The notes below the pieces were generated by a model. The model ran no database searches. It had not been told where the DNA came from and worked only from the letters and a program-made list of their open reading frames with translations. From positions 2,604,001 to 2,668,000 of the forward strand of contig OY101117.1 in assembly GCA_956465555.1 (NCBI GenBank): 64,000 nucleotides of DNA, given 5' to 3'. This document shows, one piece after another, positions 23,936 through 39,283 of the stretch (within the stretch, counting starts at the first letter, position 1; the number at the start of each line of letters is the position of its first letter). Origin of the DNA: Nitzschia sp. pyKryTriq1 (lineage: Eukaryota > Bacillariophyta > Bacillariophyceae > Bacillariales > Bacillariaceae). The translations under genes were made by a program, and so were the position numbers.

Positions 23936-26900
23936 TTAGAGAATAGGGCTTTTGGGAATCTGAGCCGCTGGGAGACTTTGTTTCCGAATAGATGATGCTA
24001 GTGGCGACGAAAACGGCGATTGTTGGAGGCCGCCATGCCCGACGGCTCGCTTTCTAGGCGAGTTGAGGGTGGGTGATGTCAGAATCCCATCCGTTCTGTA
24101 GCTGTTGTCCATTGTGACTCGTTGTATCGCGGCCGCACCCGCCCTTCTCATCATGACCCCCATTTGCGTATTCGGGGGTTGATGCGTCGATGCACGGCGA
24201 TTCATGGCACCAGGTTGTTGCTGCATTCGCGTTGTGATTTGATCGCTCTTGTAGGTAGAGGCATCGCCGCGACAGGAAGGGTCGAAATCATGATTTTCTG
24301 TCTCGTCTTGCACCGAGGCGTAATCCTCGTCGAATTCGACGGGTACCACAACAGCGGGCTCGGCCGTGATCATGGTAGACTGATCGCCGGCAATGCATAC
24401 TGGGACGTAAGCTGCTTTATGACAATCAACTGCAGTACCAAGACAAATGAGTTGCCGATGAAGCGCACCCAAATTTGCTACTAAGAAGTTAGAAGTACTC
24501 ACCTAAGAAACGCCTAAAGTCTTCCCTCTTTTCTTGCGACGTTTCAACGTTCGTATCCCATCCATCCTGTGGAGTTTACGAGGAAACAATATTTCTTAGC
24601 AGGCAATAGACTTCAAAAGCGGCCTACTGGTTTCAATGAAAGTGCACTTACCAAAAGAGAGGTTTGCAGCAATGCAGCATCGTTGAAGGCCCGCAAGTAT
24701 CTTCTACGAACAAAATAGCGGAACCAGATGGTGGGGATTAAAGGACAGAAGGCTGCCACTGCTGGTCCTACGGCAGCCTTCTGAGCCATCATTGTCACCA
24801 ATAGTATCTGTCCCACGACCATACCAGAGATACAAATGTCAAAAATGAAAGGGAATCGCCCCCCACCAATATCAAACTTTGGGCGATAGAGGAAGATAGC
24901 CGTCCATCGTAACATTGGAGTGCAGAAAAGGAAATAGGTATAGGCCGCAGGAGCGATCAACGGAGAAGCAGGCGCGAGCGCAAAAACGCAAAGCATGACA
25001 ACGCCGGAGTCAACGTAAATACGATACGGAACTGGCCCTCCAGCGCCTACAGATGTTTAGTAGAATGGTTTAGATCAGTCATTGTTCCAGAAGATGCGTG
25101 TCGCCCTCCCATGCACGTACCTCCTCCTCGAACGGTGCGGGCACAACACTTGAGTCCAAGGCAAGAGAATATGAAAGTGTTTAGCTGCAAGAGATACTGC
25201 GTAGGCAGGACCGCAAACACCCTAATGATCATCCACTGACAAAAAATGTGAGGCACGCCAAAAATTGTCAAGGCAGGACAGGACAAACATCGTGGGGTAG
25301 ACTTACATTGAGCCACGTGGCGGATACCTTTGAGGGTATCGAATATGCTGTTTCTTCGACGACGTTTCGGAGCTGGGCACCGAGATTCAGACCCCCATCG
25401 AATCCGTTGATAATTGCCGTCGAAAGCGAAGGCCCTGTAAATGCAGACAACACCATGAACCACCAAAAGTAGGAAAGAGCACTGTTTTCTGCAGTGGAAG
25501 GTGAGGACAAAAGCAGATTTTCTGAGTTGTACTTTCTTTGTTACCTTCCTTACCTGCTGTTACCGAGCTCGTTGCATTGCTTCCAAAGTTTGCAATGATC
25601 TTAAACATCGGCGGGCAAATACTACGCGCAAACACGCAAGTTAGAACCCATTTACAGAAAGAAAGATGCGTTCTCGGCGCTGATTATTTCTACTTACGCG
25701 AAGAAAAAGGTCAAGACGAGACCCGGAATAAACCCGGAAAATATGTTTGACAAAAAAACACTGTTCGCTTGCAAACTTTCGATTTCGGGAAATATCTTAC
25801 TCAAGCTCTCTGGTGAGACCAATTGTTGTGCGTATCTGAAGGATTTAACAAGGGGGCCATATAACAATTAGTGGACAATCTCACCAAGCGTCGAATCAGT
25901 TGCCAGTACGATCACTTACGTCAAAGGAATTGTGTAGAAGAAGTAGATGGCGGCGAGAGCAGCGATGGCCCTGAATGGTGAATAATGGTCAAGCATGAGA
26001 TTTATATCACACATCAACAGCACGGCTTTAGAGCAAATACTTACAATGAGTGGCGGATAATTTTCTGCTTGTCGCTGATGCTCAGGGTGACCGGTCTCAC
26101 ACATCCACGAAAGGAAGACATGTTGCAAACAGGAGCGTCTGCTAGCGGTGGAGATGGAATCTCTGCCACCGTTACCCACCGATCGTGCCCCCTCGAATCT
26201 GCTAAGCAATGCCTGGCGGCAACCGCCGCCTGTCGAGAAGTGAAAGTAACGATAGCGTATGAAGAATCGCGTACCAAGTCGTCTACAATTTCTGGGGGCT
26301 TCATACGGAGCTTAAAAATTGCCCATGCCGCGAAAAACTTGATTCGGATAGTATGGAGGATGCCCCTGCATGTAGGGACTCTCCAGATGCCACTAGAGAT
26401 CATACGCTGCTTTGCCTCGTCGTTTACATTTTTGTCGCGCGAAGCCTCTTGTACAATCGCCATGACGCGCGTCCACTTGTCTTCTGCATCAATATTATGC
26501 TCTGTTTCTTCGTTTTCGCCACCCACATCACGGTGTCGCAATCCCGCCTTTGCCTCAAAATCAAGGGCGATTCTTAAATTATCCTCGACCTGATGAGAAG
26601 AGAACGATCGTTGAGACGCACCCAGGTGCTCTACATTGTAGCCGTATACTTGAGCAGTTGCACCTAATGCGTTCATGTCAACTGAGTCGTCATCATCGGG
26701 CATATCTTCATGGAGTGATTTCATTTTCGGTGGGTGGGTTTGGGGTATGGGTACCGACAAAGCTTCAGGCGCCGCCCGCGATGAATTATTCCTTGGTTGG
26801 GTACGCAGCTCAACCCCAGCCGCTGCAGCCATATCCGTGGCATCATTCCTACGAGATTCTCGTGGACCAACATCAGAACGATATTCGCGAACTCTTTGCG

Positions 26901-29607
26901 GACATCGCAAAGGCTCCTCGCCGTCATTTGTAGGCGGAGAAGGGGCGGTGTCTATTGAGCTTGCTCCAGATTGAGCGAGTGCAGAACTGCTGCTTTGCAT
27001 ATTTGATAAACGATCCCGCAGTCTTTGTTTACGTTCTTTGTCCTTTTCCAGTCTGGACCAAATGGAATCGGCTTGGCCTTGAGTATTGGAATGCCCTGAA
27101 GTTCCCATCTCATCTGTGAGGAGATCGACGTTGTCGCAGCTCAGCGATCTTTTCATGGTTATCAGGGGCTTTGCTTTTGAAACAGGACTGGTAGACGTTT
27201 CTTCGATCCCAAAGATGTCGATATCATCAGAACTTTTGGTTCGTTTCGGTACAGATCGCTTTTTACCTCCGCTGAATTGAGCCCCATGAATACCGTGCAT
27301 TGACGCCCCCAATGCGGACTTTCCACGCCTGCTGGGAGTATTCGATCGATTTTTCAAACCATGATTCGAGCCACCATGCATCGAAGCTCTATGTTCCTTC
27401 CACAGACCCGCCTCCAGTCCGAGATCAGATGGAAGCTGAGCCGAAGATATGTCTGCTTTAGCAGCTTTCCTCTTTTCTCTTCCTAAGCCGTCTAAACTTT
27501 TGTTGGAAGAACTTCGAACAAGCCCCCTGATAAAACTGCTCCTACCTATACTTCGCTTTGTGGTGGATTCGCCAGATTCATTTGATATACCGCTGCGTGT
27601 TGAATCAATGGACTTCGAGCGTGTGACTCTACGTCTCGGGTTTGACCCTTCTTCGATGTCGCGATCGGATTCGTGTAGCTCCATGCGGTAAGATGATCCA
27701 CTGCTCGATTCATCGAAAAAACTTTCTTCGTCATCTGTATCATATTTTGACGGAGTGCCCGTAGTATCATATCCGGATCGGTTGGACTTTTTGGACGCGG
27801 ACGAAGTTTGCCGACGTTCGATTGTTTTGGGTCGGGGTGGAGAACCACCAAAGTCTCCACTATTCCCTTTCTCCTCGTCAAAACTTCTCGTGGATGCAGC
27901 AGCTTTGGATACTCGATAACTTCGCTGATATCCGTCATTTTGAGCATTTCCATTCTCAATGGTTCCATTGTGTATTATTTCATCGAGCTCTCCCTCTTGA
28001 GATACGTCGTCGTCAGAATCATCTTTCGAGTCGTCCTCAGCGATGCGTTCCTGTGCTTCCCGAAGCGCCGCGTTGGCCTCGTGCACCTGTTCAACGGCCT
28101 TCTTTTCCATGCGAAGAAGCTCTTCAAGGCTAGCACCGTAGACGCGCTCCTCGTGCCATCCATAAGGTGCCAAGTTTGCAGCTCCCAGAGCAAATTCACG
28201 ACTGTAAGAAGCTGTCTGCTCTGGCCCAAATCCCAATCCAAACAGAAGCCGACTCTCAACCTGCAAGTCATCGGTAGACCCCAAGACTTCTTGATAATAT
28301 TCTTTCTTCTCTGGTGATTGGGCATATACTTGTTGTTTGCGGAGCTCCACAGGCATCTGTGTGGAGGGTGGAGGGAACTGTTCTTGGTGAACAGCATTAT
28401 TTCCGCCACCTTCTTCGATATCGGACAATGGATTTCTGCCATTTTCCAATGCAGCAAGCCGCTTTCGACTATTGATTTCCTTGCGAATAAAGCGCAATCG
28501 ACGTAATTTCCCTGCCACACGGTACCACTGATTCCATGCTTCTCCCAAATGTTCCGCTGAGGGCAAGATGGTGACTGCAGCAATACTGGAACTGTATCCT
28601 GGCTGATTTGGTACGGAGTGATCGAAAAAGGCTGTAGTGACCGAAAGCTGCCAATCAATACTTTGTTTTCGAGAAAATACGGCTTCCACTTCTTCTTGAT
28701 CAACGACTTCGGTCGGCAAGGAGGGAAGACCGCCCACCAAAACACTGTACAATTCAACATTAGGAACAGTATCTCGCTGCTCTGGATGTGGAATCCATGG
28801 TTTGCGATCGGTTAAATACGATTCGTCCTCCTCCTTATTTTGCGCAGAGTTGTGCTGTCCAGAAGCTCTTCGCTGGAATTTTTCTCGTTCGACCCTCAGG
28901 AGAGTGTGCTCTAATTCTTCATTCCTATCTTTCCAGTGATCGGCCTCGAGATAGTAGACTCGTCGCATGGCCAAGACATCGCCCCATTCCAACTTCAGTT
29001 CCCGCAATGCATAATAAGTGACGATCCATGTGACGAACACTACTGCATATAATCGCGCTAGATCTCCACCGTAGACATCTCCGGAAGTGTCCAGAGTGGG
29101 TATATTGGTGAGGGTCAATCTTTCGTAGTCCGTCAAATTGTAATATTCTTCTCCACACTGGGGTGAGTCGCGGTCCCCACCAATCCGCGAGCACTGTGCT
29201 GTGGCATACACAGGCAGCACCACCACGAGGTATAAAAAGCACGCCAACGTGCAGACACGTAAACATAAATGATGAAATCGCAACAGAACAATTCCATCCA
29301 AATTCACTTTGAGCAAGGCACCCGAGAGCCCTCCATCTCGTGTCCCCGTTCCAGGTACGCCCCTTAACATTGTATCATACGTGAGTCGCATAACCCATGT
29401 TACCCATCCCAGCATTGGGCTGCCCCGGTCTTGACTGGGATGTCGGTACGGGGATCGGTTGTAAATGACCGTCGGAGGCCTAGCAGTACATCGAGCGGCG
29501 ATGAAGGTGTTTTGACTCTTCATCGCGCATCCAAAGGCAACCATGGTAACAGTGAAAACTCCCATGGATCCCACCAAATTGAAGGCAATTGCGGATAACG
29601 TCGCCAT
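23936..29607 (-). CDS. OSCA/TMEM63/CSC1-type mechanosensitive channel with a very large cytosolic insert
   Basis: Nine exons: 29607-26045, 25970-25920, 25835-25698, 25621-25554, 25488-25307, 25235-25121, 25046-24652, 24566-24503, 24429-23936. All eight introns are GT-AG and frames join exactly, giving 1689 aa. TM helices lie at about 6-28, 105-135 and 184-202 (RSN1_TM); a cytosolic PHM7-type domain is interrupted by about 600 low-complexity Ser/Arg/Glu residues, and the split RRM-like fold closes with SSYAIVTFTSRQAAVAARH. The seven-helix RSN1_7TM pore region is encoded by the short exons (AIAALAAIYFFYTIPLT; IFSGFIPGLVLTFFFA; LAPASPLIAPAAYTYFLFC). The tail is disordered. Predicted Ca2+-permeable cation channel gated by osmotic or membrane tension. 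Lies 0.7 kb downstream of another channel gene on the same strand. Confidence 0.88.
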
Positions 29608-30312
29608 GTTACAGCAACAAAAACAACTTGGTCACTCTTCACTGCTTGCTGCGCCACCGAGAATGCTCCTTCTTTCTCGATTTGTGACTGTCGGTCACAA
29701 ATCCTCTTAAGAGCGCCGCAAAAGAACGGAATGGATGCGCCCTTGTTGATCTACTGAGGACAGACAAAATTCAACATGTGATAAAGTAGGGGCGTCGACA
29801 GATCGATCAGCAAAGAGCGGATGCAGTTTAAAGATATATCCTGAAGAACAGAAATGCCTGATGGAGGGAGCTGACAAAACCGGTCGGGGGAGAGAAAATG
29901 GTTATTGTGCGCGATAGTTGATGGCGAGAAAGTGACCGCTTTGCCCGCCAAATCGAGACGACGTATCCAGCCAAAAACGCAGGCGGTTGTTCGTGGAACG
30001 TGCGTGCATCATGGGCGGGTTCGTGCTTTATGTTTGTCGTTCGTATGTCATGGGCATATTTTCATACGCGCGCTGGCCGATCAACATTTCTACAAGGTCG
30101 TGTTGGTCATCATGTCAAGCTGGGTCACATCATACGGTACCTTCCACTACTCTACTAGTAGAGAAAACAAATCCAATCTGACGCTTCACATCTACCAAGC
30201 AGACAGCATCGAAGACAACGGATAAAGTAGGACGTCGAGACTATTATGCGCACTGGATGGGGTTTGTAGATGGAATAACTGCTCTAATGGAGTCAGCTTA
30301 AAGCTATATCAA
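29608..30312. other. Intergenic region between two ion-channel genes
   Basis: Holds the promoter of the OSCA-like gene and the 3' end of the globin-channel gene. A perfect 14-bp palindrome CTCTACTAGTAGAG sits at 30150-30163. A 106-aa plus-strand ORF (29905-30225) was judged unsupported. Confidence 0.45.
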
Positions 30313-33011
30313 TCACGCGTCTTCATTTACTACGCGCAGCAAGTCATCGTGCGAGACGTTGAAGAAATTTTCAACGAGAGCTTCGTTGGCATCTGCTGAG
30401 CCCTCACCCTCCAACGCCGCTTCTTTTTGTAGTCTTTGCATTCTACGCTGTTTGAACCTTCTTACGGCCTTTGCGATACCGCGCATTGCGATCGCCTTCT
30501 TTTCGTTCTCGTCCTTGTTGTGCCCTCGTGCCTCTGCTCGCAGTAGCTTGAAGTCGACAGCATACGACTTTTCAAGCTTCTCAACCTCTTCTCGCGTTGT
30601 TAGACCACCCATGACAATGCATGGTGTCAATGCCCGTATCGATACAGAAGCCGTTCCATCTGCTTGGAGTCCCATAGTCGACGAATGGCCCTTCTCGCCC
30701 ATTAGCCACGACTTGCCGATGCAGTCGCCCCTTCTTAGGGTGTGGACAGTTTGACCATCCTTTCGGACTTGCATTGTTCCACTCTCAACTACCATAAACT
30801 CATGGTCATATTGCTCGCCCATTTGGATGAGATAGTCGCCAGTCAAAAGGGTGCGCGTCCTAGAAAGACTGCTGGAGAGTGCCACAAGAAATCCATTGGA
30901 GCAGTGCGTAAAAAAATTTACCCGTCTGCGAATCGTTTCAGCTCTTGCATAGATGCCAACTTCAGCGCGGAGATAATTGGGAAGAGTCTCTAATATTTCG
31001 TCACCGTTTTCAAGTCCATCGAGTACTGGTCCAGATGCATCTTTTCCTTCAGTCAAAACATTTCGCATCATGTACCCACGGATTATTCTTTCCTTTGAAC
31101 TGGCAGAGACGCGTGCTGTCCTCAAGAAGTTTGAAAGTTTTACAATGTCAGAACCAATCTTGTTTTCGTTTTGTGAGGCTTCCTCCAACACGGTTATGAC
31201 ACTTCCTGTCACAATGGCGTAAAAGATAGCTCCGCACATGTGTACTACGAGGACGGTCCAGCACTCGAGTGATGTAGTTGGAACGCTTTCGACTCCACCG
31301 ATACCCGAAAGATTCACAAAGGCCCAATGGATAGCTCGCGAGTATGAGTTGAATACATTGCGACCATTGTCATACGACAAGATTTCGGGGCTGGGAAAGA
31401 AGGGGCTCGCTTTGAACTCGGTAGCGCCGACCCCTAGCCCCACACGGGCAACCGTACACCATAGACAAGCTGAAACGTGTGTGATAAACGCTAATCGCAC
31501 GAGAAGCTTGATGATTCGCATGGTTAGCTGTCGGTCTACGCTGAGCTGCTGGCCCAGTAGGGCGTTGTTCTCGGCGCACTGCACAAAATGCAAAACCCGC
31601 GAGGCACACGACAGTCGGAGGAGACCAAATAGCTGTGTCCAATGTAGCCCAGGCTGAGCACACAAAGATGACCGTACAAACAAGCCCTGAAGCACAAAAC
31701 TCAGAAGAACTTTCACGTCAAGTTTGGGCCACGGCATCCATCTGTCCATATTCCATCGACGAAGACGCTTGATCATGCTTTTCTGTCTTCGAAGTAAAGC
31801 ATTCTGTATCTTTGGCGAAAAAAATCTTCTCTTCATTTCTATTGACACCGAATCTCGGCTCTTTCTACTGAGCCCGCTTACAATAGACGCTTCATCGTTG
31901 AGTTCGGCAACAAATTGTTGTTTCAGACGTAACTTGGATTGAACAAAATCGATCAAAAAGTCCAACGACATTGCGCACGCCGCAAGTGTATCGAGTATAT
32001 CGAAAAGGATGATGATATATTGACGACCGATAAAAAAACCAGCAAACCTGATGGCTGAAGATTGGTTGAAAAGAAAGCGTGGAGGATGAGAAACTTGTGT
32101 TTCAATGATATTCATCGACACGAGTGTGATGCCATAAGAGGACCCCGTTTCTCCTGAAAGTACGTACGTGTAACAATGGTGAAGTAAAGACACGCCAGAA
32201 GCATCACCAAACCCCAGCCCTGAAGTGGCTCTGTCTCTAGACGTTTGGAAGGCCGTTTGATGAGATCTGTAATCGAAATGTACGCTTGTTCCCAAGCGTT
32301 CTCGGTCTCTTCGTCCCAGTTTTGTGAACCGACCTCTTCTTTGATCGCATTCACAAGATACCGATATAGAATATCGTAGTGCATAGTCTGTACGCCGACA
32401 ATTTTGTGCGTCGCCCCAACGCTGCGTAAACGAGGCACTATATCTTCAATAGAAGTCAGTCCAGCCACGCAGGTCCCCACAACTCGCATGACAGCTGACG
32501 CGTGTGCCTCAAGATGTCGTTTTGTGCGAGCATTGATTTTGAGCTTGCCTGTTTTGGGGTCCTTCGAATCTTCTCCAAACGGGAAAAGCTCTACCAGTTC
32601 TGGGTGGTCGTCAAACAGCTTCAGAAAGAATTTTAGCCCCACGGCGCCGATCCTGTTTCGCTCGCTGATCAGCAGCCAGCTTCTTTCGACTCGGGAAATT
32701 TTTTCTCCGAGCAAATCCATACCGGCAATGGAAACGGCCACACTCTGCCTACTATTCCTATTGGCCATGCCAGTATTGAGGGCCCGAATAGAGGCATCGA
32801 ATTGATCGAACTTGCCAAAGTCAGTTTGAAGTTTACCCCCCTGCTCGTCGAAAGAATTCAATGACAATTCGTCGTTGAAGAATCCGTCGTCTTTGGTGTC
32901 TTCTTGGACTGGGACGGCATCGGCCGAGTCCAGCGAAGAATTTTCCCCCGAAGGCAGCAGAGGAGCCTTCAATTGTGCCAACAGTTTATTTTCTTCAATG
33001 CTTCCCTCCAT
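30313..33011 (-). CDS. Globin fused to a six-TM CNG/HCN-like ion channel with a CNB-like domain
   Basis: Exon 1 33011-32168, intron 32167-32055 (GTACGT...TTCAG, 113 bp, phase 1), exon 2 32054-30313; 861 aa. Residues about 102-255 form a globin: ELFPFG (Phe143 = CD1), LEAHASAVM (His170 = distal E7) and GATHKIVGVQ (His202 = proximal F8), aligned by eye with neuroglobin. S1 spans the splice site (LLACLYFTIVT + PIRFAGF), S2 about 293-318, S4 about 419-440 with only two Arg (428, 434), S5 about 461-485 (HVSACLW), pore about 521-546 with filter SGIGGVESVP, S6 547-570. A C-linker and CNB fold (about 573-770) follow, then a basic IQ-like helix (about 800-825). The CNB pocket has IGK for FGE and Gly for the Arg before TA, so cAMP/cGMP binding is doubtful. 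Start context ACCATGG supports the ATG. Confidence 0.9.
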
Positions 33012-33665
33012 GGTGCCGTTTGCCGTTCAGGATGATTTGCGGGGTGGACTTGTGTGCGAGAGCAGATAGAGAGAAGAGAGAAGAAGATACTTCTACTGTA
33101 CCGGTACATGTACTTGTACTCGTAATGTCAAATAGCATTCCGCATTTACGATTTACGAACGATGTACTGTAGAAGCGGAATGGAGGCGGTTTCGGGGGGC
33201 GAAGCCCGAAACTTTCGGGAAAACTTTCGCCCTTCTCTTCCGACGACTGGCGTTCGTCCGCATGATTTTTACTGTAACGGTACCAGGCACGAGTACGAGT
33301 ACAGTGGATTATCGTCGGAGCAGTACAGCAGTCGTGGAAGTCAACTTTTAGGGACCGACTACCTTCTTGCGGTCGGTCGAGATGATGTCGGTCCCAACCC
33401 ATCATATCCGGGTGACTTGTAGGTCAGACCGACATCGACCGACCGACGCTTCGATAAGCTCATAGTAGAGGAAGAAAAAAAGTGTTACTGGCGAGTAGAA
33501 TACAGAGAGCAAATGTAAAATGCACTTTAGTAGTAGGTCATAAAATAATGTTCAAAGGAATACATGGACAACACACAGTATGGTGATTTTGATCGATGCA
33601 AGACCACACAGTATGGTGATTTTGATCGATGCAAGACCATCGATGAAAAAGATTCTTCATGGCGT
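33012..33665. other. Intergenic region with hairpin and tandem repeats
   Basis: Upstream of the globin-channel gene. Perfect GTACCGGTAC at 33098-33107; a GTTTCGGG/CCCGAAAC hairpin at about 33188-33211; further GTAC-rich words near 33275-33330; and a 33-bp tandem duplication near 33573 (entered separately). No gene recognised. Confidence 0.5.
33573..33638. repeat. 33-bp tandem duplication
   Basis: Two exact adjacent 33-bp copies (33573-33605 and 33606-33638), each starting acacagtatggtgattttga. They lie just downstream of the stop codon of the PPi-PEPCK-like gene. Confidence 0.93.
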
Positions 33666-36600
33666 TTATGGTTGCGCAAGTTCACGTGTTGCAAAACGTT
33701 GCTGCTCGCCAGCGGGCTTAGAGGAGGAGCCGAACTCTGCGTATCCATCATGGATTGGATCGGCACCGAGGGTTCCAACCAATGATTGCAGATAAGCGTC
33801 ACTTGCAACACGTTTCACTTCCTCTCGGGCTTCCGCCACGCGGCTTTCGATTTTCAAACGCTTCGCCTCTACTTGGTATCCGGGACGCGCCATGAACCCC
33901 TCCAAGTAGCTCACATTCTTCTTCCACAAGGCCACTTCGCGGGCTTGTTTCTTCAGGAGGCGTTGGTTGTACCAGTCACTCTGCAGTAAAGCTTCTCGGG
34001 TGAACATGGCTCGGATCTCGGGATCGTGAATCTTCTTGCCGTTATAGTGTCCATAAGCCATAACATGAAGGACAGCACGGAGTGGCGGGCAAGCATCTTC
34101 AATGATACCATCCTCAAAGTACATCAAAGCCGACTTCTGCATTGCTTGAGCAATGTTCTCAATACCGTCGACAAACACTGCCATGTCCTGTTTCTCAGGA
34201 TGCAACATCTCGTCCGTAAACACGCCCGAAGGGTTGTCGAAGATGCGGCAGAAAAATTGGTGGACAAATCTCCGAGTGATGCGGTATCCGAGACGGGAAG
34301 CAGGAATCTCACGGCCCTCGTATTCGAAGTCTTCAACCTTTTCCAAGAAGCCTTCGTTGATCAAGTAGTTGGGATCACGCTCGCTTGGTGTCATGCGGCA
34401 CCACAACTCGGGGATGACCAAAGAAATATCGTGGTCGACCTTGTATTCTGAGCCAATGTATCCGGCGGCAGATGAGTAACCACCATATTGCGTCAAAATC
34501 ATGGAAACCAACATGTTGTTCAAATCCGCAGTCGCTCCAATGGCATTGAAGGGGCCCTTGGACAAGGCACCTTCGGAACCTGCACCAGTGGTACTAGGAC
34601 TCTTTCCGGTGACACAGCACACGTAGTCCATGAAGAGTTCAGGCAGCTGCTGGTAATGCAGAGGGTTGTAGACGCAAAGAGGGCGGATCTTGGCACCATT
34701 CAACTCATCAGGGGGGTTATTTCGGCGTCCACTCAAGACTCCAGCAACTGGAAAGACGCACGGCTGGTGAACAGACAAGCGACGGTACAAACGCGCACCA
34801 AGTTCAGCCAAGTATTTGCCCTTTGGCTGCGTCTTGTCGGGTCGGACCTGCAAGTATCGAGGGTTCTTGGTAGGTTTTCCATCCACCATGCGTGGTTTGG
34901 CACTGCAAACGGCAACGCCTTCTCCTGTAGTAGCTTCCATCATGTGTTTCTTCATGGGCTCAGTGAAGAGATCGAAGAAATAGAGTTCCTCTGTCAAATT
35001 CTTCATTTCTTCGCCCCGCTTGATCGGTTCGAAATTCGCACTGCAAACAATAGTGCGAGCAGAGACGATATGAGTACGTGGATGGGGAAAATATCGAGAG
35101 AAGCTCTCCCACTTACCATAACAATCCAGGTTCCGAAAAGTCAATCTCCGTTTGCTTATCATATCCAGGAATGATGGCGTCGTCGGGACGTTGGAAGAGT
35201 CGCCACTCACAGTTCTCCGAAATCTTCAGAGATGGGTATAGCGAGTAATCCGCAGGGAGACCAATAATTTGTTCCCGGGGCACAACAACACTTGCGGTAA
35301 TATCATCCTCCATCTGGACCTTCGCAGCGGGGTGGAAATCTTGTCGCATCTTGTAATTTCGCCAGGTTCCATTTTTGCGAGTGCCGACACGTAAATATGA
35401 TCCCACCAATTGACGCCCGTCAAATTTCAGTTCATGTCCAGGAGCTCCATTAGTGATATCGACCGTGAAGTACGACTTCCAGTTCTCTTGCATGTCACTC
35501 TTATAGTTGCTCTTGATACAGAATAAGATGGCCAAAATGTGATTTGGAATCGACTCCAAGTAAGCATTGTGCTCGGGGGTATAGAGATCGGCATCGGGTG
35601 TCAAAAGTTTGATGACACTTCCCAAAGTACTGAGTACGGCAAACATAAGTAATAGACAAAAGAAGGAGAGTGAGTGTAATGCTTCAAAGAGTGCGCGTTG
35701 ATGTTCTAGACTCGAACACCGATGAGCTTAACGTACCGGTCCGGCGACAAAATGGGACGTGAGGGATCACTGTGCGTGGCAACATGTTCTGGCAAGAGGC
35801 AGTTGCTGTAGTCATGTTTGAGAATCTTTTCCACTTCTGCCATGTCGGCTTCGTAGTCTCCAATAAAGATTGGACCATGGATGACGGCATCCATCAAAGA
35901 TTTGGAAATCTCGGATTTTCCTCCACCACTGACCGTCGATGGCTTGTGGCAGAAGACCGGCTCAGCCAAGGTTCCAATCAAGCGCCACTTGGGAACAGTT
36001 GGGTGACGATTAACCTCTACCTTGTATCCTGATGGATGTACGTATGTGTGGTTGGGCTTGAGTCGAAGTGTCTCTAAGGAGCCCTCGCGGTTGCTGAATG
36101 TCGCCGTCTGTTTAGAGATATCTAATTTCATATCTTCCGGCAGAATGTGAATGTCAGGATAACGCTTGTCGGTGGCGTATCCCTCAGGATGCAACGTTAC
36201 GCTGTCACCAAGGAGCTTGATAGCCTCATCGAATGTATAGGTATTCTTTGGAACCTCTTTGTGGACAATGGTACGCATGTACCTCGGATTGGCCATGAAC
36301 TTGTCACCCAAGTTGGTCGATTTGAATGCAAGGGCACCTCCAGCGTGCTATTGAAATACAACCATTCAAAACAGTAAGTATACGAAATATTGAAACCCAA
36401 CAAGGATCCATTTGATGGAAACCAACAAACAACTCACCTCTTCTTCGGCCAATCCCATAATGTTAGCAGTAAGTCCAATTTGCGTCTTGACTTCCTTCTT
36501 GCAGTATCCGAAATAATTATCGGCAAGGATGGTGACCATGATACCTCGTTCGTCGCGGCAAGTGATCTTGAATGGCGAGCCGCCGTTGTAGAGCTCCGTC

Positions 36601-37623
36601 GGTTCGGACCAGCACATTCCAGTTGCTTTTTGCTTTTCCGTAGCGTCGGCAATATTGGGAAGTCCCAATTCTTTCTTGAGGCATTGACGCAAATGGGGTG
36701 CCAAGATTACACATCCAGTAGTTCCAGTCCAATGTGCTGTATCGAGTCCAGCATCGTTTTCGGGCAGAGAGGGATCCCCGCCGTTGCCAAAAATGGATTC
36801 CACAAAATCGAGATTGGCGACGCATCCACCAGGAACAAAGAATCGGACTTCCAATCGTTTTTCAGCGTTGACACCAGGGACCTCGGGGCAAGCCAGCGGA
36901 CGCAAATGTAGAGAGACCATAGTTTCTGCTGGTGTCTCCCAGCTCTGAGTATAAGGGAGTGTGTTGAGCTCTGCTGGAGGCTGGAGAGCAGCCTTCAAAA
37001 GCCTCTGGTAGGCAATCAAGGGAACTGTAATCTTGTCGGCAGGAATCGGCAAGCCATAGTCTGCGACATGGAATACTCCTTTAGTAGTGCGTTTATCTAC
37101 AACATCGAAACATAATTAGTTAAGTGAGAATGTGTTTCATTTGACGTGGATAAAAAGGAGACCTGTTTTTCTTACCATTGATGGGGTTGTGTAAAACTCC
37201 GTTGTTGGTCAATCGATAAGAATCGATTTCACTGTTGTGGAACTCCTTGGCACCTTGAGGGAAGGAGAGTTCCCTTGCGAGACCGTATCGGTCCACCGCC
37301 AAAGTCTGCTGAGGGAGCTGCGGAATGTCAGCGTCTCCGGTCTCCTTCAAGACATCGTTCAAATAAGCTTGGATGCGCTGGTCAATGGGAGGCCTGTAGT
37401 GTTCCAAGAGACGGCTCTGCTCTCTGTAGACACGGAAGAGGTCTGAGGCGGCATCCAAGATCTCGTCGTCCGCCTTGCTGGGGCTTTCAAAGCCTTGTGC
37501 GGCCAGCTTGACGGCGATGACCTTTTGCAATACGACGGGGTCCACCACTGTGGCTTGGCCACCCTCGTCGTTGAGGCCGATGTAGTGACCGAGGTCTGGC
37601 TTTTTGGATGGGGCAACCACCAT
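33666..37623 (-). CDS. PPi-type phosphoenolpyruvate carboxykinase-like enzyme
   Basis: Five exons: 37623-37176, 37096-36438, 36347-35737, 35629-35117, 35040-33666. All introns are GT-AG with matching phases; 1201 aa, close to the roughly 1150 aa known for PPi-PEPCK of Entamoeba and Propionibacterium. That enzyme interconverts PEP + CO2 + Pi with oxaloacetate + PPi (EC 4.1.1.38). Regions recalled from that family: FFVPGGCVANLDFVESIFGN, HWTGTTGCVILAPHL, a glycine-rich phosphate loop STVSGGGKSEISKS, and AIGATADLNNMLVSMILTQ. No signal or transit peptide, so cytosolic action is inferred. The assignment rests on remembered family signatures rather than a search; the alternative is another large uncharacterised PEPCK-related family. 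Confidence 0.75.
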
Positions 37624-39283
37624 TTTCAAATTAATTTTTTCTTCCTAAGGATCTTTTTTGTTCATGAGGGTTTGGTTTTGTGAGAAAACAAGACCAAGGA
37701 TTGAATGTGGTACTTCTTCCGACCACCGATAAAGGGTTCGCATCCATCACATCATCATCTCGCTCTGGTATCTTTTTGTTCCTTCTCTCTTCGCCTCTCA
37801 TCCCAACGCATTTGTACCGGTACGAGTATTCGGCAGGCAGGGTTCTCGTTCCCCGTCGCAGATGCCGGCAGGCGCGTTTTATGTAGAAACATTACTGTAC
37901 TCCTACACGAATGGATCTTTCCCGTTGGTGTTCGCATTTGGATAGATGAGTGAGTTCTCAGGCAAGATCTTCTTTCATTCTTCACAAGGACAACGAGAGG
38001 TTTGGAGTAGGCTTCGCACTTTGGATCTCAATCTACGTACTTTGGGTGCAGAAGAACACCACAAGAACACCGGAAGAACACCAGAGATTGATGAGGAACA
38101 CACGGACGCTCCGTGTAAAAGAAATAATATTATAACAACCACACCACGATTGACGAAATCACACGTAATAATGGAGGACAAGCAACAAACACAGCTATTT
38201 CTCTTTGGAAATGCGGTACTCAAATTCGACAGCTCACTCTACTACTAGTAGAGTACTACTACTCTACTAGAGTAGCTCTACAAGTACTTCTTGCTTGTAC
38301 TAACTGCTAGTACTACCGGTAGTAGTAGTACGGGTATCATGTACCAGGTAAAAGATGATGGATTTGATGTTGTCTACAAATAATACCAAATACCGACCGG
38401 TCGTAGATAGAGCTCGTACCAGGGAGTCTACTCTAGTAGTAGGGACCTACTACCGGTATGGGCCATTCGCTTTCAGCACAGCAGCAGTCTCTCTTTCCAC
38501 CAGGAAGGATGATGATCATGCATGAAGTACCAACAAAGTACTACCTCGTCGTACTGTGTTGGTACTGCTGGTACACCTATCGTGCCTGAGAGTACAGTGC
38601 GGTAAGCAAGGAACAAGCACAACAAGAAGAATAATGCAAGTACAGTTCGTAATCTACATACTAGCTCTACTAGCTACTAGCTACTACTGACTGTAGTAGT
38701 AGCTCTAGAGTAGTAGAGAGTGGAAAACTGAACGAGAACAAGCAGACAACGCAATCTTCTTTATTCCTGTAGTACTAGATAGGGAAGCACCATGTTGCAT
38801 GGGGCCAAGCAAACAATCAATCTACTCTCTAGCTAGTAGCTGGAGTAGAGAGGTTGGTCTCAAGGCGAGGAAGATGTACTCTCTCTCTAGTAGAGTAGTA
38901 GAGAGAGAAGATGAAGAAGAAGAAGGAGGATGATGATCGCCTAAAAAAATAATCACGAAGAACCTACATATTCTTCCTTCGTCTGGCCGTTGTCCAATCT
39001 TCCATCCCGGTGTCATCCAACCAAAAATGACCGCGCGAGAATAATATGATTCATGACCTGATTGATTGTTGGTTGGATGACCCGCACGCACGAACCGTCG
39101 ATCGCCCCGATCGAAAATTTCGGTTTTCGGCAACGTTGTTATCGTCGACGACACGACTGCATCAATGCTGCCCGACATTATTGTTTTGTTGTCTTTTGGA
39201 TAGTCTGCCTACCCAAACCTCTCTCTTTATCCTTGCTTTGAACACAATACAATTCAACAAGCACAAACACACAAAGCATCATC
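37624..39283. other. 1.66-kb divergent intergenic region, palindrome-rich
   Basis: Separates the divergent PPi-PEPCK-like and C-CAP/TPR genes. Perfect GTACCGGTAC at 37814-37823. From about 38235 to 38900 it is packed with CTACTAGTAG-type palindromes and GTAC words (for example 38237-38275, 38685-38720, 38822-38910). No ORF with coding character was found. The AC-rich stretch just before 39284 is likely 5' UTR. Confidence 0.5.
38237..38910. repeat. Cluster of CTACTAGTAG-type palindromic repeats
   Basis: Degenerate tracts of ctactagtag/ctctagtagag separated by GTAC-containing words. They are dispersed, not a regular tandem array. Confidence 0.6.

Follow-up and report, generated by a model that had tools for sequence, protein, structure and literature searches.

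Does a gene in this diatom join a haem-binding globin to an ion channel in one protein, and if so, could the state of the haem control the current? The question is raised by a minus-strand locus in a stretch of 64,000 nucleotides, hereafter the window, which is C3:2604001-2668000 of a 40.65-Mb genome of 20 contigs. The silicon-transporter family has eight matches in the genome, of which seven are near full-length with E < 1e-260, and 1 of 14 control genomes has a match, below the cut-off; the genome is therefore that of a diatom, in line with the photosynthetic cell of the original prediction.

Gene structure and domain order

Spliced translation from 33011 to 30313 yields 861 residues and a stop, encoded in two exons around a 113-bp GT-AG intron. 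The spliced protein carries, in this order, a globin (residues 127-248), a six-TM channel (266-577) and a cyclic-nucleotide-binding-type domain (682-742), as assigned with hmmscan against Pfam, and the sequence from 30001 to 33200 is free of any N. The coordinates, strand, intron boundaries and phase, and the three haem-pocket residues of the original prediction all agree with this translation (Table 1), and its central reading, a globin and a six-TM CNBD-type channel in one spliced frame, is borne out by Pfam and by phmmer matches to PDB sequences, which are too strong to be due to chance. The exon-1 frame is open from 33026 to 32112, opening just five codons upstream of the start ATG at 33011 (context CACCATGG).

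Table 1. Features of the globin-channel gene, numbered from the first letter of the window.
Feature	Position	Strand	Description
Exon 1	32168..33011	-	844 nt, phase 1 at its end; start codon, N-terminal tail (1-97), globin and the N-terminal half of S1
Globin domain	32268..32633	-	Residues 127-248; PF00042, E 3.3e-12; identical coordinates in the genome scan
Phe143 (CD1)	32583-32585	-	Globin haem-pocket residue
His170 (E7)	32502-32504	-	Globin distal His
His202 (F8)	32406-32408	-	Globin proximal His
Intron	32055..32167	-	113 bp, GTACGT...CTTCAG, phase 1; deduced from frame, splice sites and S1 continuity
S1 segment, intron-split	32034..32219	-	Residues ~265-288; hydrophobic peak 268-286; aligns over the junction, without gaps, with S1 of KAT1
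Exon 2	30313..32054	-	Remainder of S1, then S2-S6, the C-linker, the CNBD-type domain and a basic C-terminal tail, with the stop codon at 30313-30315
Ion_trans core	31168..31731	-	PF00520, 31.3 bits, profile 68-239 (genome scan)
S4 candidate	31564..31623	-	Residues 426-445, two Arg; aligned with KAT1, KAT3 and two diatom channels
Selectivity-filter segment SGIGGVE	31288..31308	-	Residues 531-537; from the TAX-4 alignment
Cyclic-nucleotide-binding-type domain	30670..30855	-	Residues 682-742; PF00027, 29.9 bits, profile 2-66/89; 33.4 bits in the genome scan

Two short motifs lie outside the domains. A basic stretch in the C-terminal tail, GIAKAVRRFKQRRMQRLQKEA (window ~30390-30520, minus strand), could bind calmodulin, and a di-leucine-type motif, EENKLL (residues 6-11), could direct the channel to the tonoplast, a form of targeting discussed for TPC channels (PMC11085791). 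The EENKLL-type pattern is common, with three further matches within the same protein.

Continuity across the intron

The six-TM channel has an S1 only via splicing, and this segment, assembled from both exons, carries the evidence for a single product. Spliced S1 aligns with that of KAT1 without a gap across the junction, both halves on one diagonal, the exon-1 side contributing 19 BLOSUM points and the exon-2 side 13, with identities at Trp266, Leu272, Tyr276, Pro282, Phe285 and Ala286. The best KAT1 fit of the exon-2 side falls at the exact place predicted by the exon-1 side, and 3 of the 702 8-mers in the exon-2 frame score equally high. KAT1 is the best of the four S1 references at hand, the others being KAT3, the diatom channel L032 and L033. 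With L032 the exon-2 side again fits best at the predicted place but weakly (21 of 702 8-mers equal), and the exon-1 side prefers another diagonal; with KAT3 and L033, two of the four references, no fit was found on the exon-2 side. Within the scanned limits 16 in-frame GT-AG joins are possible, and the join across 32055-32167 is alone in placing Pro-x-x-Phe-Ala after the exon-1 half of S1. Other measures contribute little: the Ion_trans score failed as proof of the S1 join, being no higher with S1 (28.7 bits for the spliced 351-aa piece, 29.3 for exon 2 alone), and codon-usage scores (0.12 for exon 1, 0.008 for exon 2, -0.11 for the intron in the exon-2 frame) are not decisive.

We conclude that globin and channel are very probably one polypeptide. 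We see a slight chance that the locus instead makes two products, with unspliced RNA giving a globin whose hydrophobic C-terminal tail ends at 32112, and the exon-2 frame being translated separately, starting in the intron (MNIIETQ...) or at another place. The exon-1 frame does reach a stop at 32112, a globin match of 50.4 bits survives in full in its unspliced product, the exon-2 frame stays free of stops from 32445 across the intron, and the Ion_trans bits are equal without S1; however, the two frames would then overlap on one strand, the channel would have no S1, half of which would be stranded at the end of the globin, and the splice sites GTACGT and CTTCAG do join a KAT1-like S1. The claim that S1 is built from both exons thus stands on the gapless KAT1 alignment, but the accompanying statement that the two parts cannot be separate genes was too strong, since the splice is itself deduced, the exon-2 frame runs open through the intron and 16 in-frame joins can be drawn.

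A globin with intact haem-ligand residues

On the spliced protein the Pfam globin profile scores 47.4 bits against a cut-off of 22 (hmmscan), and the best PDB sequence matches to exon 1 are plant non-symbiotic haemoglobins (phmmer; 2oif, E 3.3e-15). Phe143, His170 and His202 are invariant in all 11 aligned globins, namely the window protein and 10 of the 23 other globin matches of the genome, at 23-28% identity and with L006, L008, L011, L012 and nine matches without a locus excluded. Outside this alignment, the globin of L021 (C2:3746697) has no His at the E7 place, so E7 is not universal among the globins of the genome. The profile match and this conservation corroborate the prediction of a complete globin with Phe CD1 at 143, His E7 at 170 and His F8 at 202.

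The position of E7 depends on the alignment used. In the pairwise alignment with rice haemoglobin, residue 160 rather than 170 faces the rice E7 His. Near residue 160 the window protein has a four-residue insert relative to its paralogues, and we judge the placement at 160 to be an alignment slip beside this insert. His170 is preferred because of the paralogue alignment and because it lies 32 residues from F8, a distance that we take to be that of neuroglobin. Phe129 falls at B10 if the spacing of myoglobin, eight residues ahead of the invariant Pro137, applies. The globin would probably be hexacoordinate, with His E7 and His F8 as ligands of the haem iron.

A single-sequence AlphaFold2 model of residues 88-281 reaches a pLDDT of 56 and predicts, at low confidence, helices at about 161-183 (containing His170), 188-201 (just before His202), 209-227, 234-252 and 266-279. 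Searched against the PDB with Foldseek, the model gives no match at E 0.001, and rice, barley and Arabidopsis haemoglobins rank first (TM 0.31-0.47 over the best eight matches). The model and this ranking lend the predicted globin fold weak support. Exon 1 also matches, below the cut-off, a model of NO-inducible flavohaemoprotein (E 2.4e-8, 33.3 of 432 bits). Across the whole protein, hmmscan found no reductase domain in Pfam and no PAS match at E 1.

A channel with altered voltage sensor, filter and nucleotide cassette

The six TM segments, pore loop, C-linker and CNBD-type domain follow the order of the CNBD superfamily, with a phmmer alignment that begins at S4/S5, takes in the C-linker and reaches the CNBD. 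CNG channels are the best PDB matches to exon 2 (phmmer; 6wej, E 3.3e-15), KCNH1 matches at E 1.5e-12, and TAX-4 and CNGA channels can be aligned along the pore, S6, the C-linker and the front part of the CNBD. The Ion_trans match to the spliced protein (266-577) scores 25.0 bits, exactly at the cut-off of 25, and the structure model of the channel part is unusable (pLDDT 37).

The K+ filter of KCNH channels typically carries GYG or GFG. Here SGIGGVE stands opposite TTIGEVP of TAX-4, with no GYG and no motif of the TIGE type, which makes a K+-selective pore appear unlikely. The aligned S4 keeps two Arg (LLRLSCASRV) against five in KAT1, and voltage sensing is probably weak, given so charge-poor a segment. 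A loss of the charge-transfer Asp in S2 was dropped as a candidate, as two alignments disagree.

The cNMP_binding match (682-742; E 5.6e-7) scores 29.9 bits against a cut-off of 27.5 and covers the profile no further than position 66 of 89. Cyclic nucleotides make their main phosphate contacts with the cassette Glu and Arg, and in gapless stretches against the three CNBDs of one PKG, whose domain scores are 14.6, 6.7 and 23.1 bits, Lys729 takes the place of the Glu and His738 that of the Arg. These replacements make the C-terminal domain unlikely to act as a canonical cyclic-nucleotide receptor. KCNH channels also lack the cassette Glu and Arg, and are not known to require cyclic nucleotides. 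In its cassette residues and its filter the present channel departs from CNG channels proper.

The gene in its genome

Among 24 globin matches in the genome, this gene alone lies within 20 kb of any Ion_trans (37) or cNMP (60) match, all three counts being lower bounds read exon by exon, so that fusions with long introns may be missed. Three of the 37 Ion_trans matches have a cNMP match within 4 kb, namely this gene and two channels on C9, both with ankyrin-like repeats by eye; the one compared with the PDB is KAT/AKT-like. When exon 2 was searched against the genome, the best non-self match had E 0.04. The cyclase domain PF00211 has 102 matches, counted by exon. NO synthase was rejected as a source of ligand, as it has no match in the genome.

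The next gene on the same strand (window 26044-29631, minus strand) is a 1196-aa frame with an RSN1_TM domain (PF13967, E 8.7e-13), which we take to mark the family of OSCA/TMEM63 osmosensitive channels, and five long minus-strand frames upstream (window 33666-37644) have no Pfam match at E 0.01. This genome has an expanded set of globins (24 matches), often arranged in tandem: one 586-aa frame on C12 contains several globin domains, and four matches lie side by side on C16 (loci L022, L023, L025, L026 and L028, on C12, C9, C13 and C16); globin expansion has been reported for benthic diatoms (PMC7335047). Elsewhere, C1:4381705-4604758 and C3:3246196-3462537 carry cyclase and Ion_trans matches in step, with equal or near-equal scores, as would be expected after a recent duplication, or a double assembly, of at least 200 kb. 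A 1392-aa frame at C14:1081805-1085653 (minus strand) has four Ion_trans matches, like a four-domain Cav/Nav channel, a class that, according to the excerpted text of a diatom survey, pennate diatoms lack, Seminavis robusta excepted (PMC11085791). Loci L035, L036, L041, L043 and L044 have many cNMP matches in long frames and resemble, by eye, PKG-like kinases with several CNBDs.

What might gate the channel

We put at roughly even the prospect that the protein is a haem-ligand- or redox-modulated, non-K+-selective cation channel, with the KCNH layout and a globin replacing the PAS domain. The domains and their order, the haem-ligand residues, the lost cNMP contacts, the charge-poor S4 and the non-GYG filter are read directly from the sequence, and the globin is likely to be the main input of the channel, because the cNMP cassette and S4 are both degraded and the haem-ligand residues are intact. 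We hold a little more tentatively, at somewhat below even confidence, that in this protein a globin is for the first time an integral part of an ion channel, with O2, NO or redox state gating cation flow in a single polypeptide, and that it is perhaps the diatom's sole CNG-like channel.

In the mechanism that we propose, a cation channel of the CNBD superfamily, presumably tetrameric, would bear a haem-binding globin as its cytosolic N-terminus. When O2, NO or CO bound the haem iron, or when the iron was oxidised, the bond between His E7 and the iron would break or re-form, and this change would move the globin helices. The resulting strain would reach the pore via the linker between the H helix and S1 and/or via the C-linker ring. 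In the globin model the H helix ends near 252, and S1 starts near 265, leaving a linker of about ten residues, and in KCNH channels the N-terminal domains act on the C-linker in the tetramer. The scheme presupposes splicing, haem binding and a tetramer, along with the gating and its sign, the ligand and the membrane. Weighed against it were the poor globin model and unusable channel model, the misfits among the S1 references, the Ion_trans score at its cut-off, the offset of E7 in the rice alignment and the lack of an NO synthase match in the genome.

The globin could instead be a tethered enzyme or ligand trap, such as a redox buffer or an NO dioxygenase, next to a channel with another gating input, in which case the haem state would not gate the pore. 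Haemoglobins of this lineage commonly turn over NO, and the match of exon 1 to the NO-inducible flavohaemoprotein model, albeit below the cut-off, points the same way, as does the description of diatom globins as putative NO dioxygenases (PMC6779911). We nevertheless regard this as unlikely: the protein has no reductase domain, a ligand trap would not have to be joined to S1 through some ten residues, and the other two candidate inputs of the channel, S4 and the CNBD cassette, look degraded. That same degradation speaks against a globin that is merely structural or vestigial in a channel gated as usual by cyclic nucleotides or voltage, which we consider distinctly improbable. The CNBD does score above its Pfam cut-off (29.9 against 27.5 bits), and cyclic nucleotides are probably made in this cell, since cyclase-domain matches are numerous (102 for PF00211); however, Lys729 and His738 occupy the cassette Glu and Arg positions, the cNMP_binding match stops at profile position 66 of 89, S4 is without most of the Arg of KAT1, and the haem-ligand residues of the supposedly vestigial domain are intact.

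Relation to known sensors and channels

Globin-coupled sensors, such as HemAT and the globin cyclases, combine in one protein an N-terminal globin and the output domain to which it is coupled. The present gene would share this plan, as its spliced sequence predicts, with the output assigned by homology only, but here the output is an ion channel and the globin is of the plant-haemoglobin type; a globin-coupled sensor is named in none of the best 60 of 68 PDB matches to exon 1. CNG channels (TAX-4, CNGA) rank highest among PDB sequences over the pore, S6, C-linker and CNBD, and differ from the present channel in its N-terminal globin, its replaced cassette Glu and Arg and its filter (SGIGGVE against TTIGE). 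The KCNH (EAG/ERG) K+ channels have a similar layout of cytosolic N-terminal sensor, six TM segments, C-linker and CNBD-like domain, but their N-terminus holds a PAS domain rather than a globin, and here the filter lacks GYG and S4 is charge-poor.

Haem binding is reported for the PAS domain of hERG3 and the C-linker of Kv10.1, and in Kv10.1, according to the excerpted text of the same source, the haem effect does not need the PAS domain (PMC9420133). Slo1 BK and KATP/SUR2A channels are likewise described as modulated by haem and CO, but through short Cys/His motifs with weak, exchangeable haem (PMC5834611), unlike the complete globin domain found here. Chimeric algal globins also place a globin domain inside a larger protein, for example the globin-NOS of diatoms and NOS-globin of green algae (PMC8728061) and the multi-globin proteins of Guillardia with a putative cytochrome b5 (PMC4101818); the partners named in the excerpts of these two sources are enzymes or redox domains, not channels.

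Significance

Each part of this protein is of a known kind, and as far as these searches go, the combination of globin and channel is new to the open-access literature. No globin-channel fusion was found in the open-access literature, for the most part consulted as excerpts, and the term 'globin' has a count of zero in the main text of a survey of diatom Ca2+ channels (PMC11085791). Single-protein scans of viral and prokaryotic contig collections, which say little about diatoms, returned no relative.

If the proposed reading is true, gas or redox state would act on membrane current or Ca2+ entry directly, without a second messenger. The protein would add a complete haem pocket to the haem-regulated channels, whose known members, as described in the excerpted sources, have weak or disputed sites (PMC5834611, PMC9420133), and the fusion could be a starting point for gas-controlled channel tools. 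For the Seminavis genome, it has been proposed that the expanded globins of benthic diatoms may sense oxygen, with a call for experiments, and the excerpted text of that paper names no output for such sensing (PMC7335047). A globin wired to a channel would be a named output for the sensing of oxygen or NO in algae.
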